Below are positions 3,539 through 25,485 of a stretch of 60,899 bases of DNA, piece after piece (the first letter of the stretch is position 1; every line of letters starts with the position of its first letter). Origin of the DNA: Bacteroidota bacterium (GTDB taxonomy: Bacteria > Bacteroidota > Ignavibacteria > Ignavibacteriales > SURF-24); NCBI GenBank assembly GCA_030706145.1, contig JAUZPB010000016.1, positions 1 through 60,899 on the forward strand, given 5' to 3'. The translations under genes were made by a program, and so were the position numbers. The notes under the pieces were generated by a model that was not told the origin of the DNA, made no database searches, and saw nothing but the letters and a program-made list of their open reading frames with translations.

Positions 3539-6500
3539 ATGAAAAAGTATTTTATCGTTGTACTGGTTTTGCTATTGTGCCTTGTTATAGGTGGCTGCGG
3601 CCTCTTTGGTAACCATGTAAGCATTGAGGACTTCAGTCCCCAGGGGGAGGTAAAAAAACTTACTTCATTTAAGGTAGAGTTCTCCGAAAACCTTGCACCT
3701 CCTGAGATGCTTAATAACTGGACGAGTGATGAATTCATTGAGTTTACTCCTAAGATCGAAGGAAAATTCAAATGGATCAGCCCAAAGACACTCATCTTTT
3801 CCCCGGAATACCCACTGCAGCCAATTCAGTCCTACAGAGCAAAAATTACAAATAAGGTCCTCTTCAATACAAAGTTTTCTCCTGACTTTAAGGAATATGA
3901 ATTCCATACTCCATATTTTGATGTAGTTAAGGCTGAATACTTCTGGGTCCAGCTTCCAAATGAAAACTATAAGCTTAGCATTAAGGCAAACCTCTACTTT
4001 AACTATCCTGTTAATCCATCAGATCTTAGAGATTATCTTACTGTAAAAAATAAGGGGGAATCTCTTAAAGATTTTCAGATAGTCTCCGAAAGCCCTTCAG
4101 ATGTTATTGCCCTTAACCTTGGTCAGATCAGTCAGACTGATAAAGAACAGCAGCTAGAACTTATCGTAAAAAAAGGACTATTTTCTATAGTAGGGAAAAA
4201 ATCACTCCAGGATGAAAAGACTTTTTCATATGAGCTCGCGCCAATAACAAGACTTGCTGTTACAGATGTTTCTTCGGGCTATAGCGATCAGAAGGGCTGG
4301 ATAGAGGTTTATACAACTCAAAGGGTCGATGATAAAAGGATCAAAGAATTCGTAAAGGTTGAACCTGCTAAAGATATTCAGTATTTCGTAAATGAAAATT
4401 CATTCCGCATTGAAGGGGACTTTTCTTTATCCCAGGTTCAAAACTTAAGAATAAAAAAGGGCCTGCCGGGGCTTTATGGCGGTGAAATGGAAAACGACTT
4501 TGAGCAGGAAGTGACTCTTGCTGACCTTGACCCTTCAGTCCGCTTTACAGATTCAAAAGGCAGATATATGATGCTCTCGGGCAATAGAAATATTGAACTT
4601 AGGGCCGTAAACATTCCTTCTGTTAATATAGAAGTTTCACAGGTATTTAAGAACAATATACTCTATTTCTTAAGCAGGTACGACTACTATAATGAAAATG
4701 AAGCAGCAGGAAGCTACTACTTTACGCCTTATTATGAGGCCGATAATTTTGGAAGACCTTTCTATAGCGAGACACGTTTACTTAAGAATAGGCAAAACAA
4801 GCTTGAAAAGTTCAACGTTAATCTTGACCACGCTTTTAATGCAAAACTTAAAGGGCTTTTTATTGTTAACGTCAGTTCTACCTCAGATAGCTGGAGGCGG
4901 GCAGGAAAAATAGTTTCTATGTCGGACCTTGGTATAATTGCCAAGATGTGCGAAGATGAACTGATTGTCTTTGTGAACTCAATTGCTGCAGCAGAGCCTG
5001 TGGAAAATGTTGAGATTACACTCCTTTCAGAGAACAATCAAACCCTCCTTTCAGGAAAGACCGACCAGCACGGCATTATACATTTTAAGAATATCGCAAA
5101 TAACACTAAGGATTTTAAGCCACGGCTAATTACAGCAGAGACAAACGGAGACTTTAACTATATAGATCTTCCTGTAACAGAAATAAGGACATCACGCTTT
5201 GATGTAGGCGGGGCCTCGGATTTTAATAGAAACTATAAGGTATTCCTTTATGGTGAGCGCGACCTCTACAGGCCTGGCGATAAGGTTAACATCTCTGGGA
5301 TCGTACGTAATGAAACCTTTAATGTTATAAAGGGCGAGCCTGTAATAACAAGGATAATTGCCCCTACTGGAAAAACCTATTCACAGTTTAAGAGCGACTT
5401 AAACCAGGAGGGATCATTTGAAATATCATTTGCCGTTCCGCCATACATACAGACCGGGCAGTATAGGGCTGAAGTGTTAAATGGCGCCGGAAGTATGATT
5501 GGCTCCTATAATTTCAGCGTTGAGGAGATAGTCCCAGATAAGATACGCCTTTTAGTTAAAGCTGACCGCACTCAGGCTAAGCCCGGAGAAACAGCACATA
5601 TAAATCTTCAGGCAGAATATCTTTTTGGTGCTAAGGCCTCGGGACTTCGCTATGAGGCTTCATACAGAATAAGTCATAGAGCCTTTTCAAGCAGAAAATA
5701 TTCTTCTTTTGATTTCTCTAATTCAACATATGCTAACACAAACATTCCCTCCTCAGCTACCGATGGAATCTTAGATGAAAATGGTAATGCAACCTTAAAC
5801 TTTAAGGTGCCCCAGGATTTGAATTCCTCAGGCATTGCAACTCTCTACAGCTATTTAAGTGTGTTTGACCCTACAGGAAGAACTGTCGACAGGAGCACTT
5901 CAATAGAGGTTTATCCCTTGGACTATTATATAGGAATAAAATCACCTGGATATTATTTCTCTACAAATGAGCAGATTACTTTTAAGATTGCCGCCGTTGA
6001 TAAAAACGATAAGACACCATCTTCTTCCATGCCTGCAATAGCAAGGCTTATCAGGTATGACTGGCAAACTGTCTTAAAGAAAGATAATTCAGGAAGATAT
6101 TATTATGCATCTGAAAAGAAGGATATTCAGGAATGGGAAAGAAATCTTGACCTTTCGGGAGGAGAAAAAAGCCTGACATTAAATGTATCAAAAAGCGGAG
6201 AATATGAGCTTAGAATATTCAGGAAAGGAAGCTCTTTTTACAGCCGCTCTGGATTCTGGGCCTATGGCTGGGGCTCTTCTACTGTAAGCTCTTTTGCAGT
6301 TGATAAAGAAGGTAAAGTTGAAATATTGACAGACAAAGTAACATATAGCCCAAATGAAAAGGCAAAGATCCTCTTTACTGCTCCTTTTTCGGGCAAGATG
6401 CTTGTTACGCTTGAAAGAAATGGCATTTATGACTACCACTATCTGGATGTAAAGGATAGATCGGCACAGATGGAGATTAGCCTTAATGAAAACTATATGC

Positions 6501-12727: not shown

Positions 12728-14116
12728 CTATTTCATATACTTTGAAATAAATTCCTCTACCTCTGGAATTCCTCCCTGATAGATAAGATATCCATTGCTT
12801 GGTTCTCTTTCTGTTATCTCGCCTGCAATTGGAGTTAGCATGATCTCTTTTACTTTGTTTAGATCATTTGTCTGTCCTAAAGCCCACCCAAGCTTAATAT
12901 AAGCAACTTCAGGAAGCATATTTGCACATGGAACAACTCCTAGCTCCATTATATCTCTTCCTGTATCATAGACATACATCTGCACATATCCCCAAAGAGT
13001 TTGTACTGTCATATACACAGCTATATTGTTATCACATGCCCTTTTAAGTGCAGGATAAAGCGGTTTGTTTACGTGACCTAATCCTGTACCTGCAATAATA
13101 ATCCCTTTATAGCCATTATCAATAAGCGATTCTATGATATCAGGCTTCATATTGGGATAGTAGTATACAATGCTTACCTTCTCTTCAAAGGAGGTGTTAA
13201 TGGTAACTTCCCTGTCTTTTCTGCGGCGTTTGTAGTCCTGCCTTAAAAGATGGATCTCTTTTTTGCTTACCATAGCAAGGGGTATATCACCAATTGTCCT
13301 GAATGTCGACCTGTAGCTCGAATGCATCTTTCTTACTCTTGTCCCTCTGTGTAGAAGTCCATAGGCATCAGAGGTAGGACCAAACATGCATACCATTACC
13401 TCGGCAATGTCGCTCTCTGCTGCCGTCTTAACACTGTGCTGAAGGTTCAGTGCTGCATCCGATGATGGCCTGTCACTTGAACGCTGTGAACCTACCATTA
13501 CAATAGGAATAGGTGAGTTCTGTACCATAAATGAAAGGCATGCTGCAGTATGGTGCATTGTATCTGTGCCATGACCTATGACTATGCCCTGCACTCCTTT
13601 TTTTATTTCTCTTCCAATTGCCTCGGCTGTTCCTTTCCACTGCTCAGGGCCCATATTTTCACTAAATACACCATAGAGCTTTTCAGTTTCAAGGTTGCAT
13701 ATATCGGCAAGTTCGGGCACCGAGCCAAAGAGCTCACCCGGCGAAAATGCAGGAATTACGGCTCCTGTCCGGTAATCTAAGCGGCTTGCTATTGTACCGC
13801 CCGTCCCAAGGAGCTTTACCATGGGCTTGCTTGGATCATATGGAAAAGCCTTCTCTTGTATCTTGTAGTTGGCTTCTTTTCGCCCCGAAATATTTATTTC
13901 TTCAATTGCCTTTACTGCTACACCAATATTGTATCCGGAACGAAGCTTTAGGACTATATGTGCTGAATCTGCAGTCTCAGATCGTGGAAGTATTATGCCA
14001 TAATACTTCCCTTTCGAAGTCTTAATCTCAACATCACTCCATATCTGCGCACTAAACTTCTTTAGAGTCTCCAGGGCCTCATTTCTGTAGCCTTTATATG
14101 CTTCATTAGATGACAT
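12728..14116 (-). CDS. gatD: Glutamyl-tRNA(Gln) amidotransferase subunit D
   Basis: This 462-residue protein is the glutaminase half of the GatDE amidotransferase, releasing ammonia used to convert Glu-tRNA(Gln) to Gln-tRNA(Gln). It has a short N-terminal beta domain (about residues 25-80), then an asparaginase-type domain. That domain carries both active-site segments: GTGGTIASRLDYRTGAV (Thr108) and GHGTDTMHHTA (Thr184-Asp185). Length and the N-terminal domain separate it from plain L-asparaginase. The start ATG overlaps the 3' end of gatE by 11 bases, with GAGGGA inside gatE as its ribosome-binding site, implying translational coupling. GatDE is known as an archaeal enzyme, so its presence here is unusual. 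Confidence 0.93.
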   Translation of the reverse strand: MSSNEAYKGYRNEALETLKKFSAQIWSDVEIKTSKGKYYGIILPRSETADSAHIVLKLRSGYNIGVAVKAIEEINISGRKEANYKIQEKAFPYDPSKPMVKLLGTGGTIASRLDYRTGAVIPAFSPGELFGSVPELADICNLETEKLYGVFSENMGPEQWKGTAEAIGREIKKGVQGIVIGHGTDTMHHTAACLSFMVQNSPIPIVMVGSQRSSDRPSSDAALNLQHSVKTAAESDIAEVMVCMFGPTSDAYGLLHRGTRVRKMHSSYRSTFRTIGDIPLAMVSKKEIHLLRQDYKRRRKDREVTINTSFEEKVSIVYYYPNMKPDIIESLIDNGYKGIIIAGTGLGHVNKPLYPALKRACDNNIAVYMTVQTLWGYVQMYVYDTGRDIMELGVVPCANMLPEVAYIKLGWALGQTNDLNKVKEIMLTPIAGEITEREPSNGYLIYQGGIPEVEEFISKYMK

Positions 14117-16040
14117 CGATTCCCTCTCTTTTGTAGGTTGATCGTAATGACTTTAATATTTGAGCACTGCTTATTCTGCCACGGACTTTTCTCATTACAA
14201 GCCCTATCAGCACTTCATCTTTCTTTTCGGGATTTCTTAGATTTATTCTCTCAAGCTCTGAATGCGAGCTCTTTATAGCAGAAGAAAGTTCTTCTTCTGT
14301 ACAAACTGCCTCAAGCATTTCAGAAGAAAAGGATCCATTCCTTATTGCTTTTTTCATAGCAGGCAGAATTCCTTCCCTGCTTAAAAGTCCTAAAGTGTAT
14401 GCTTCAAATATCTTCTGCATAACTTCAGGCGTAAGTATATCTGTCTTAAAGCCTTCTCTTTTTAGCCGTTTGGGATACTGTATAAATGCAATTGAGGCAA
14501 CTATGGGGCTTACATTTTTTTCTTTTACCATGTTTTCAAATAGACCGGCAAACTTTGAAATGGCAAGCGGTTCAACAGTATCCTGAGGAATATTCAGTTC
14601 CCTATACCATTTTTCTCTTATCCAGAATTGTACGGGCATATCAAGCGAGAGTTTCTTAAGCCTTTCTTCTGTTATCTTTCTTGGAGGAAGATCTGTATCA
14701 GGGTACATGCGGTCAGGCCCGGGAAGTATCCTTTCAAAACCATTTGTTCCATCTTTCAAAGCTTGTCTTGTCTCAGATGGAACACCTATAGTAGCTTCCC
14801 TGGCGCGGATGATTATTTCCTTTGCAGCTGTATCAATGTCTTTGTCGCTTCCCCATACTACAACAAGAGTATCATCATCCATAGCTCCTGCTGCTTTTTT
14901 TATCTTTAGCCACTCTGAGGAAGTAATATTGTCTCCTTTGCTGTCTGAGTGAATTATGTTTGGTATGTGTGTCAGACATGCTACGACACGGACCCTATCG
15001 GATATTTCTTTTGAAAAATATGTGTCTGTCTGAGTCTCCCAGTGAAGAAGTCCTCTGAACCCTTTTAAGACAACACATTTTATTATCATTCCCTGCGAAG
15101 CTGCAGTTTGAAGCGGCATATAGTAGGTCTTTTTCATCAGCCGTGTAATATCTTCAACCTTTGCACTAAAACTCTCGGGAGTAATACCTCTTCTCTTTAG
15201 CTCATCTCTAAGGCGTAGAAGATTCCACTGTCTCATTGCTTCATTGTAGGTTAAAAGTGGTATAAGAGGAATTTTGTGTACGCCTTTAATTTCTACTCTT
15301 GTCCCGCCTTTTACACTTACATTTACATCCTGCCTTGCAGCACCAATACCTGTGCGAACCTTTCCGGTTGAGCGCACGAGCTTTCTGCAGATCTGTGCGA
15401 CTTCTGCAACTTCATATGGAGTTCTCATCTCTGGCGCTGTTACAGTCTCTATTAAAGGCATTCCTAGACGATCGGTCAGATACACTCTTCTGTGCCCAAT
15501 GTCACTTACCTCGCGGCATGCGTCTTCTTCAATAGACATCTGTATAATATTAATTTCTCTATCTTTAAAGGGAATTCTGCCATCTAATGCAAATATGGAT
15601 GTCCTCTGAAATCCAGTTGGTATGCTGCCATCAAGATACTGCTTCCTTGAAATGTGAATTTCGTCAACAATATTGCAGTTATATAGCATTCCGGTCTGAA
15701 GCGCTATGTCAAGTGCTTCTTCATTGATCTCAAAAGGAGGTGTGTCGTCCATCTCATATGTGCAGACAGTCTCGCGGTTGATCTGGTAGATAATCTCTTT
15801 TTTTGTCTTAAATTCCATAAGGGCTGTACCATCATACTCTCCGAACTCTGAAAGCGTAGGGCGCATGTGTCTAAGTATCTCTGCATTGTATTTTGTGCTG
15901 TATATTCCAGCAGGACAGCGGCAGAAGAGTTTTTTTGAAGTTAGAAGTTGCTGGTGGATCTCCAGACCGGACTTGAAACCGATAAGTTCATAATCTTTGT
16001 CGGTCATTTCGCTGAAGGGCTTGAACGTGAAATCATCCAT
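14106..16040 (-). CDS. gatE: Glutamyl-tRNA(Gln) amidotransferase subunit E
   Basis: This 644-residue protein is the kinase/amidotransferase half that binds tRNA(Gln), phosphorylates the attached Glu and amidates it. The opening GLEIHQQL is the GatE version of the GatB/GatE signature. The middle holds the AspRS-like insertion absent from GatB (about residues 280-420). The run FERILPGPDRMYPDTD and a YqeY-like C-terminal tail follow. About 640 residues against about 480 for GatB also supports GatE. ATG 16040 is preceded by GAAGAG; the GTG three codons earlier sits too close to it. It is the first gene of a two-gene operon with gatD. No gatCAB genes are in the window. Confidence 0.93.
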   Translation of the reverse strand: MDDFTFKPFSEMTDKDYELIGFKSGLEIHQQLLTSKKLFCRCPAGIYSTKYNAEILRHMRPTLSEFGEYDGTALMEFKTKKEIIYQINRETVCTYEMDDTPPFEINEEALDIALQTGMLYNCNIVDEIHISRKQYLDGSIPTGFQRTSIFALDGRIPFKDREINIIQMSIEEDACREVSDIGHRRVYLTDRLGMPLIETVTAPEMRTPYEVAEVAQICRKLVRSTGKVRTGIGAARQDVNVSVKGGTRVEIKGVHKIPLIPLLTYNEAMRQWNLLRLRDELKRRGITPESFSAKVEDITRLMKKTYYMPLQTAASQGMIIKCVVLKGFRGLLHWETQTDTYFSKEISDRVRVVACLTHIPNIIHSDSKGDNITSSEWLKIKKAAGAMDDDTLVVVWGSDKDIDTAAKEIIIRAREATIGVPSETRQALKDGTNGFERILPGPDRMYPDTDLPPRKITEERLKKLSLDMPVQFWIREKWYRELNIPQDTVEPLAISKFAGLFENMVKEKNVSPIVASIAFIQYPKRLKREGFKTDILTPEVMQKIFEAYTLGLLSREGILPAMKKAIRNGSFSSEMLEAVCTEEELSSAIKSSHSELERINLRNPEKKDEVLIGLVMRKVRGRISSAQILKSLRSTYKREGIDVI

Positions 16041-16120
16041 ATGAATCACTCTTCATTTTTATTTAAGGAAAGATAAATATGTAAAATTTAATTAACAAGA
16101 AACTTTTATTTGGAATAAAT

Positions 16121-24069: not shown

Positions 24070-25485
24070 TTGGCGACTAAAGGTAAAATAGAGACAAAAA
24101 AAAGTAAGAAGCGGGAAAAAATTATTGAAGCTGCTTCTGAATTATTCTCAAAAATGAACTTCCATGAAGTAATGATGGAAGATGTGGCAAAACTTGCGCA
24201 AATTGCCAAGGGCACACTCTATAACTATTATTCTTCCAAGGAGGACCTCTACTTTTCTATTATGGTCCTTAGAATGGAAAACCTTATTAACTCACTTAGA
24301 GAAAAGATCAAAATCGATGCAACAGCAGTAGACTCACTTCATACATTTGTTATTCATAACTATCTGTTCTTTGTCAAATATAGCTGCTTTTTCCGTATGT
24401 TTCAGAGAGACAGCCTGACTGCCCACAATGAAATGTGTACCGAGTTTAAATCAAAAAAATGTGAGCTCAGAGATCTTCTTAAAGAAATTATTGTATCTGG
24501 AAAAAATGTAAAACTCTTCAGGGATATTGATACAGAATTTGCAAGTGACCTCATCTTAGGCTGTATCTATGGCGCTGTTAACAGGGCAATAGATAAGGAC
24601 TATAAATTAGGGCAGATAACTGACCATGAAAGAGAGGACCTTTTAGATTTTATACTTAATGGCGTCCTTTGGCCTGATGACTCTCAGATTGACACTCATT
24701 TTAAGGAGGAAAAGCAGCTTCCGCTAAAGGGTAGAACAATAGTCATTACAAGAAGTGTTGAAGACTCAAAGGATTCCTCATCTGCTTTTTTGGATGCTGG
24801 AGCTGATGTTGTTTCATTTCCTACTCTGGAAGTTACTCAGCCTAAGGATTGGAGTGATTTTGATGATGCTGTAAAAAGCAGTTTTGATGTACTAATTTTT
24901 ACGTCCTCTAACGCAGTTAAAATGTTTGCTAAAAGGTGCCAGGAACTTGAACTTAGCCTTGATTACTCATCTTTATTTGTAATTGCACTTGGAAAGAAAA
25001 CCTCAGCTTTATGCCAGAAGTTTTCAATACCTGTTAATATGGTCCCAAAGGAGTTCAGTAGCCTTGGACTAATAAAAGAGTTATCCATATCTGATTTCAA
25101 GGGAAAGACCGTCTTAATTCCATCTTCTGCAATTTCAAGAGATGAGCTTCCCCTGGCTCTTTTGGATTTGGGAGCTATTGTAAAAAAGCCTGTAGTCTAT
25201 AGTGTGTCTGTTCCAAAAGAAGAGCATTTAACCCAGGCTATAGAAACATTAAGTAAAGCAAAGCCCGACGTATTTATTTTTACAAGTCCTTCAACCTTTA
25301 GAAATTTTCTTGATATAATGAAAATATCAGAACCAAAAAAGTATTTTGACAGTTATAGCGTTGCAGCCATTGGTCCTACGACAAAGTCGGAAATTGAAAA
25401 GGAAAATGTTCATGTTGCAATTATGCCCACTACTGAATACACGATGGATGGACTGCTAAAAGAAATAATTGTTTTTTTAAGCTAA
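24070..25485 (+). CDS. hemD: TetR-type regulator fused to uroporphyrinogen-III synthase
   Basis: One uninterrupted frame of 471 residues. Residues about 13-205 form a TetR-family regulator: a helix-turn-helix at 34-58 (EDVAKLAQIAKGTLYNYYSSKEDLY) followed by an all-helical ligand/dimer domain. Residues 219-471 form a complete HemD, which cyclises hydroxymethylbilane. Its segments are KGRTIVITRS, FTSSNAVKMF, the second lobe GKTVLIPSSAISRDEL…GA, IFTSPSTFRNF and AAIGPTTKSEIE…TMDGLLKEI. The start is TTG with a weak ribosome-binding site; the gap to hemC is 40 bases. Free-standing HemD is about 250 residues, so the regulator is an added module. I infer that it controls this operon in response to a tetrapyrrole intermediate. 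Confidence 0.92.
   Translation: MATKGKIETKKSKKREKIIEAASELFSKMNFHEVMMEDVAKLAQIAKGTLYNYYSSKEDLYFSIMVLRMENLINSLREKIKIDATAVDSLHTFVIHNYLFFVKYSCFFRMFQRDSLTAHNEMCTEFKSKKCELRDLLKEIIVSGKNVKLFRDIDTEFASDLILGCIYGAVNRAIDKDYKLGQITDHEREDLLDFILNGVLWPDDSQIDTHFKEEKQLPLKGRTIVITRSVEDSKDSSSAFLDAGADVVSFPTLEVTQPKDWSDFDDAVKSSFDVLIFTSSNAVKMFAKRCQELELSLDYSSLFVIALGKKTSALCQKFSIPVNMVPKEFSSLGLIKELSISDFKGKTVLIPSSAISRDELPLALLDLGAIVKKPVVYSVSVPKEEHLTQAIETLSKAKPDVFIFTSPSTFRNFLDIMKISEPKKYFDSYSVAAIGPTTKSEIEKENVHVAIMPTTEYTMDGLLKEIIVFLS

Follow-up and report, generated by a model that had tools for sequence, protein, structure and literature searches.

An intact gatE-gatD gene pair beside GlnRS in bacteria of the class Ignavibacteria

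Introduction

According to a 2022 article on the genetic code systems of archaea (PMC9499178), GatDE, the two-subunit Glu-tRNA(Gln) amidotransferase, is at present confined to archaea; the article ties the enzyme's specificity for the tRNA-Gln of archaea, in which the A1:U72 pair and the D-loop are used, to the absence of GlnRS transfer to that domain. Bacteria have the related GatCAB, which, according to PMC4206432, is kept in Bdellovibrio and Thermus beside GlnRS and AsnRS for asparagine (Asn) synthesis. Here we describe a gatE-gatD pair in a 60,899-nucleotide stretch of DNA (contig JAUZPB010000016.1 of assembly GCA_030706145.1, hereafter the window) from a Bacteroidota bacterium of the class Ignavibacteria. 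The pair is an intact, selected two-gene GatDE of a clade found in Ignavibacteria, and it occurs together with GlnRS, AsnRS and usually GatB. No description of a bacterial GatDE was found among the titles and abstract beginnings listed by full-text literature searches with few subscription journals, although automatic annotation of bacterial gatDE genes may well already exist.

Results

A complete gatE-gatD pair

The pair and the regions of its products discussed below lie in the window as follows.

14106-16040, minus strand: gatE (Glu-tRNA(Gln) amidotransferase subunit E), 644 amino acids from the conserved ATG
14106-16049, minus strand: gatE from the alternative start, GTG at 16049, 647 amino acids
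12728-14116, minus strand: gatD (subunit D; GatD_N and type I asparaginase-like domains), 462 amino acids
14106-14116, minus strand: 11 bases shared between the end of gatE and the start of gatD
14787-15179, minus strand: AspRS-like insertion domain of GatE, residues 291-421 in the 647-residue numbering, from the match to 1c0a
14940-15062, minus strand: bacterial GatE insert signature, residues 330-370, from the alignment
14130-14549, minus strand: C-terminal helical/YqeY tail of GatE, fast evolving, residues 501-640
12731-12811, minus strand: C-terminal extension of GatD, residues 436-462, not seen in two archaeal GatDs

The ATG at 16040 fits the conserved N-terminus of the family better than the GTG at 16049, and the 11-base overlap of the two genes is, as far as sequence goes, compatible with translational coupling. 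GatD scores 527.4 bits against an NCBIfam equivalog cut-off of 310, and GatE scores 537.7 bits against one of 456. In contrast, the best GatB model reaches 141 bits on GatE against a cut-off of 338, below the level of a GatB equivalog. The Pfam domains of the pair are GatD_N, Asparaginase N and C, GatB_N and GatB_Yqey, and the closest relatives of both subunits in the PDB are the archaeal GatDE structures 1zq1 and 2d6f, which are matched over the full length. The match of the two genes to GatDE is far beyond chance. An earlier note on this DNA, made from the sequence alone, had ended the pair at 16040, the position of the conserved ATG, and had taken both subunits to be full length and called them GatDE. 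The latter two statements are borne out by these scores and matches, and the genes are not a pair of GatB and asparaginase paralogues.

We aligned 40 GatE sequences (alignment A1) and 39 GatD sequences (alignment A2), and no row of either departs from the conserved active-site residues. GatD consists of GatD_N followed by an asparaginase domain with a Thr/Thr-Asp/Lys active site, four residues which we take to be the catalytic ones, and the asparaginase segments TGGTIAS, HGTD and RKM are likewise kept in 39/39 rows, in agreement with the asparaginase active site that had been noted earlier. GatE has a GatB-like catalytic domain whose acidic and His residues, presumably the catalytic ones, are intact in 40/40 rows.

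GlnRS, AsnRS and GatB in the same genomes

The genome from which the window comes encodes GlnRS beside GluRS, as well as AsnRS, a bacterial-type AspRS and GatB. The earlier note had asked how Gln-tRNA and Asn-tRNA are made in this organism and had suggested a search for gatCAB, glnS and asnS; that search finds GlnRS, AsnRS and GatB, and therefore GatDE is not a needed route to either aminoacyl-tRNA. We accordingly discarded the possibility that GatDE supplies Gln-tRNA for want of GlnRS. The real puzzle is why GatDE is retained beside GlnRS.

Across 59 genomes (the window's own and 58 relatives), the GluRS/GlnRS family is matched at least twice in every genome, and 56 of them have a complete frame of GlnRS size (556-608 residues), whereas G002, G035 and G039 have only fragments of one. 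In all 36 genomes that were read for it, the own genome included, GlnRS was recognized by sequence similarity, with 66-78% identity to the own protein. AsnRS exceeds its curated cut-off in 58/59 genomes; the matches in G016, G029 and G058 score 620-627 bits versus 456-517 in the other 55, and there are perhaps two AsnRS types in one order. AsnB exceeds its curated cut-off in 23/59 genomes and has no match at E 1e-30 in the window genome. GatB, which we scored as present wherever the GatE model cross-matched it, partial GatB matches included, occurs in all 36 genomes without AsnB, and AsnB occurs in all five genomes without GatB (Fisher p 0.007); these five have AsnB with or without GatDE. A replacement of GatCAB by GatDE for asparagine was also considered and rejected, since over the 59 genomes GatDE is associated neither with AsnB (Fisher p 0.42) nor with GatB (p 1.0).

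Distribution, selection and loss

GatE scores over the cut-off in 25 of the 59 genomes and in 30 of 395 sampled genomes of the phylum, all 30 of which belong to the window's class. A sample of 391 genomes from the class itself gave 108 over the cut-off; at a threshold of 1e-60, a GatE match is present in 110 of the 391 and in 62/190 genera. We laid out 41 loci, omitting the partial L063 as well as L056, L057 and L061, which were judged to lie on the contigs of L078, L097 and L091, respectively. In 40 of the 41, gatD comes after gatE on the same strand, and the remaining locus ends at a contig edge. One gene intervenes in two of these 40 (L083 and L095, genus g13), encoding a 288-residue, secreted-looking product that appears ankyrin-like by eye. 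No third gene is common to the loci class-wide in this set of 41; one family, f2, has a gene upstream of gatDE that we named PhoH-like by eye. No credible RNA leader was found at gatDE, where a single match below the gathering threshold, to an animal editing element, was discarded.

Ratios of nonsynonymous to synonymous substitution (dN/dS) are 0.006-0.061 for the GatE core (eight pairs with finite dS; two more are saturated), 0.005-0.061 for GatD (nine pairs) and 0.089-0.300 for the GatE tail (nine pairs), values that are rough because several dS exceed 1. The pair is under strong purifying selection, and the GatE tail is still under selection. In the same 24 genomes (G009 was omitted, its gatD missing), mean pairwise identity is 82% for GatD, 70% for GlnRS and 63% for GatE.

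One genome, G013, retains a gatE remnant of about the first 64 codons (L102, around 5685-5873) between the usual PhoH-like and Ada-like neighbours, and this remnant is 97% identical to G055 over 61 residues. The genome search gave no GatE over the cut-off in G013, and there is no gatD on that 7-kb contig, the only part of G013 searched for it. If the assembly is right, this is apparently a recent natural deletion of gatDE. Both tRNA-Gln genes of G013 are identical to those of the gatDE-bearing G025 and G055. Plotted on a GlnRS tree that comprised 25 genomes with GatDE and 11 hand-picked ones without (36 in all), the presence of GatDE changes 11 times and shows no clustering.

Phylogeny and origin

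In a GatB-rooted GatE tree (27 rows, 440 columns), three archaeal GatEs, all euryarchaeal, form one clade (support 100/100). The bacterial GatEs form a separate clade outside the archaeal ones with weak support (83/67), at a point where the program warns that long branches meet. The window GatE is 32-36% identical to the three euryarchaeal GatEs, which are 50-53% identical among themselves; for GatD, identity is 45-51% between bacteria and archaea and 58% between two archaea. Because the cross-domain identities lie below the archaeal-archaeal ones, the bacterial clade does not have the appearance of a recent acquisition from the tested euryarchaeal groups. The horizontal transfer from Archaea that the earlier note saw implied does not follow from this tree, in which the bacterial GatEs lie outside and not inside the three euryarchaeal ones, albeit with weak support. 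Transfer from archaea is possible; the pair may have been acquired from another archaeal group, or it may belong to an old bacterial lineage.

Inside the class, families are kept together fairly well in the GatE tree, where 10 label changes compare with a minimum of 7 and a mean of 21.6 after shuffling. GatE identity also correlates with GlnRS identity, at r 0.87 when the divergent G014 and G031 are set aside and 0.57 when they are included. Since GatE follows both families and GlnRS in this way, an old presence in the class with many losses and few transfers is suggested.

Some sequences stand apart in these comparisons. The GatEs of G014, G031 and G380 (L100, L101 and L113) are divergent, with 42-44% identity to the window GatE, while their GatDs are 67-70% identical; these GatEs sit on very long branches in two separate places in the GatE tree. 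In G033 (L082), gatE and gatD lie on a 3652-base contig and the GatE groups with that of G055, a member of another family. The genus of G033 also includes G037, G038, G040 and G046, which are without GatE; the G033 pair is either a recent transfer or a binning error. On the archaeal side, a megaplasmid of Natrinema thermotolerans (L115, from about 4001) carries an unannotated gatE with one frameshift in the insertion domain. A search of plasmids yielded a single archaeal GatE.

The GatE insertion and tail and the GatD extension

The AlphaFold model of GatE has a mean predicted local distance difference test (pLDDT) score of 81 and matches 2d6f_D with Z 31.8 over 491 residues. Residues 291-421 of the model match residues 285-418 of Escherichia coli AspRS (1c0a) with Z 14.4 and a root-mean-square deviation of 2.7 over 120 aligned residues, and twelve AspRS entries match residues 291-432 (Z 11.1-14.4). 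The AspRS-like insertion that the earlier note reported is confirmed by this match to the AspRS insertion domain.

Inside the insertion, two archaeal GatEs have the segment GLIGxEIQPGRRLGTE, and a related form occurs in the frameshifted third. In the bacterial GatEs this segment is replaced, with a few extra residues, by a near-invariant region, W-x-T-Q-T-D-T-Y-F-S-x-E-I-S-D-R-V-R-V-I-A-C-L. The invariant residues of the bacterial motif are Gln340, Phe345, Glu348, Arg352, Cys358, Pro363, Asn364 and Ser368, among which Gln340 and Glu348 align with archaeal residues.

The YqeY tail of GatE scores 30.7 bits in Pfam against a cut-off of 27, and its structural match to 8xje (Z 7.0 over 55 residues) falls in the tool's ambiguous range. 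Compared by domain in 19 genomes, with G014 and G031 left out, GatE has a mean pairwise identity of 83% in its catalytic part, while the insert stands at 67%, residues 421-500 at 73% and the tail at 38%; the corresponding values for GatB in the same genomes are 75% for the catalytic part and 60% for the tail. The drift of the bacterial GatE tail is notable because removal of the YqeY tail abolishes the activity of yeast GatFAB, as stated in PMC4027206.

GatD ends exactly 27 residues past Thr435 in 39/39 rows, with many invariant positions in this extension, whereas two archaeal GatD chains stop within about 8 residues of the point equivalent to Thr435. In the AlphaFold model of GatD, residues 435-450 have pLDDT below 50, and the remainder of the extension is of low confidence.

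tRNA-Gln genes

The first base pair is U1-A72 in all 50 tRNA-Gln genes read, the own two included. These comprise 30 tRNA-Gln(UUG) genes (15 from genomes with GatDE and 15 without) and 20 tRNA-Gln(CUG) genes (11 with and 9 without), and they are the ones nearest to the own genes, drawn from the best matches of 57 (UUG) and 49 (CUG) genomes. We looked among these 30 and 20 genes for an odd tRNA-Gln belonging to GatDE genomes and found none, and the tRNA-Gln(UUG) of G033, which has GatDE, is 100% identical to that of G040 and G046, which do not. Inspected by eye, tRNA-Gln has a D-loop of 7-8 bases versus 9 in tRNA-Glu(CUC), and a difference in D-loop size between tRNA-Gln and tRNA-Glu is reportedly read by both enzyme types, GatDE included (PMC4810234). 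The two tRNA features that the earlier note had named for GatE identity hence part ways: the first pair is not the archaeal one, while the shorter D-loop is present. The tRNA-Asn here also has U1-A72. Of 269 tRNA candidates in the own genome, 150 were scored and 28 genes listed; a tRNA-Glu(UUC) is not among these 28, and an additional, unusual tRNA may lie elsewhere.

Genomic context

The window contig (C68) makes up 60.9 kb of a 5.34-Mb draft genome of 345 contigs, estimated to be 98.5% complete with 2.7% contamination. In 2-kb steps, the G+C content of the window is 36-41%; both gatDE steps are the highest at 0.41, and the others are at most 0.40. The neighbours of gatDE are bacterial (PBP1C, an alpha-2-macroglobulin, a Bax inhibitor-like gene, chemotaxis genes and a haem cluster), so that bacterial genes flank the pair on the contig, as had been stated earlier, and the contig is bacterial. 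The pair is also present on the single-contig genomes G006, G024 and G030, and gatE is found on eight named metagenome contigs, with the names Ignavibacteria, Ignavibacteriales, Ignavibacteriaceae, Ignavibacterium, Melioribacteraceae, Melioribacter roseus and Bacteroidetes.

HemA uses Glu-tRNA, and because of this we considered a link between GatDE and the nearby haem cluster; the cluster is not common to the other gatDE loci laid out, and the link was rejected. Within the haem cluster, an apparent TetR-HemD fusion is encoded at 24070-25485 on the plus strand, with an assumed TTG start; it has a TetR-type DNA-binding domain at residues 18-62 (48 bits) and HemD (uroporphyrinogen-III synthase) at residues 238-463.

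Discussion

We favour, at a probability of about 0.5, the reading that gatE-gatD encodes an active accessory GatDE that works beside GlnRS and whose substrate is probably Glu-tRNA(Gln). The amide chemistry is very probably conserved. As in the archaeal enzyme, GatD would release ammonia from Asn or Gln, the ammonia would pass from GatD to GatE, and GatE would activate and amidate the side-chain carboxylate of Glu on tRNA(Gln). GatDE may thereby form a side route beside GlnRS that corrects or uses Glu-tRNA(Gln) made by GluRS, or, alternatively, it may make Gln on tRNA under favourable conditions. It would not be essential here, unlike in archaea, and the regions of GatE that dock the tRNA would have adapted from an archaeal A1-U72 tRNA to a bacterial U1-A72 tRNA.

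Several observations weigh against this reading. GlnRS coexists with GatDE in all 25 GatDE genomes and is present in the 11 others read as well. GluRS could be located in 23 of the 36 loci and has, in all 23 genomes (15 with and 8 without GatDE), an Arg where Thermus has Arg358; according to PMC3927822, this residue marks a discriminating GluRS in Thermus but is not decisive in every phylum, and little Glu-tRNA(Gln) may be made because GluRS keeps the discriminating-type Arg. The tRNA-Gln genes have U1-A72 in place of the A1:U72 pair which archaeal GatDE is reported to use (PMC9499178), and they are alike in genomes with and without GatDE. Lastly, the putative tRNA-reading tail, at 38% mean identity, is the least conserved part of GatE.

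The main rival takes such observations as its own support and holds that the bacterial GatDE has kept its chemistry and changed its substrate, to another aminoacyl-tRNA (tRNA-Asn, also with U1-A72, is an example) or to a non-tRNA carboxylate. The constant presence of GlnRS, the discriminating-type Arg of GluRS and the identity of the tRNA-Gln genes of G013, which lost gatDE, to those of G025 and G055 all fit a substrate change, and so do the rewritten, near-invariant insert motif with its invariant Cys358, the 27-residue GatD extension that two archaeal GatDs lack, and a GatE tail that has drifted far more from its catalytic part than the tail of GatB has. However, both proteins still score as Glu-tRNA(Gln) amidotransferase equivalogs at the whole-protein level, a YqeY-like tail is still predicted and under selection, no common partner gene points to another pathway, and, as regards Asn in particular, GatB already fits that task, being present in all 36 genomes without AsnB. 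We regard a changed substrate as a possibility to be taken seriously, though we would not adopt it. In the same tentative spirit, Ignavibacteria might hold a distinct GatDE branch with a new substrate or role beside GlnRS, AsnRS and GatB, marked by the GatD tail and the rewritten GatE insert.

The remaining explanations appear much weaker. That the pair is a vestigial archaeal acquisition in the course of being lost, without present function, would agree with its patchy presence, the 11 changes without clustering on the GlnRS tree and the apparent recent deletion in G013, but it is improbable given dN/dS of at most about 0.06 for GatD and the GatE core, active-site residues that are intact in all aligned rows, and a GatD that is more conserved than GlnRS. 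The proposal of the earlier note, an archaeal GatDE acquired horizontally and supplying Gln-tRNA in a bacterium without the usual enzymes, draws on family membership and, as a weak hint at most, on the slightly raised G+C of gatDE; with GlnRS, AsnRS and GatB all in the genome the supply role is refuted, and with the bacterial GatEs outside the euryarchaeal ones we consider the proposal as a whole very unlikely. What stands of it is the central identification of GatDE genes in a bacterium, whereas the question of Gln-tRNA was framed too simply. Contamination or misassembly of a metagenome bin could be suspected from the 345-contig draft and by the short G033 contig, and single misbinned cases may exist. 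For the window it is refuted by bacterial genes on both sides of the pair, and the occurrence of gatDE on single-contig genomes and on the named Ignavibacteria, Melioribacteraceae and Bacteroidetes contigs makes it negligible as a general explanation.

Comparison with known systems

The accessory GatDE that we favour shares with archaeal GatDE (1zq1 from Pyrococcus abyssi and 2d6f from Methanothermobacter thermautotrophicus) the domain order, the active-site segments, the AspRS-like insertion and, as predicted, a YqeY-type tail. It differs in coexisting with GlnRS, in a GatE identity of 33-36%, in the 27 additional residues of GatD, in the replaced insert motif and poorly conserved tail of GatE, and in a host tRNA-Gln with U1-A72 where A1-U72 is reported for archaea; it is also absent from many close relatives. 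With regard to bacterial GatCAB, its GatB is, like GatE, an amidating subunit, and the two are homologous (hhalign 99.1%), but GatB is without the AspRS-like insertion, whereas GatE has it and is paired with an asparaginase-type GatD, and the genome has its own GatB.

The window genome resembles Bdellovibrio and Thermus in having GlnRS, AsnRS, one bacterial-type AspRS found, GatB, no AsnB match at E 1e-30 and a tRNA-Asn with U1-A72, a combination which, by analogy, fits Asn being made on tRNA by the GatB-type enzyme. That pattern would explain GatB here, but not GatDE. Set against the statement that GatDE is confined to archaea, an intact GatDE together with GlnRS in many bacteria of one class offers a natural setting in which to test whether GatDE and GlnRS can share one tRNA, what GatDE does when it is non-essential and how old the enzyme is. 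If the root outside the archaeal GatEs is real, GatDE would be an older enzyme that survives in bacteria rather than an archaeal invention transferred late.

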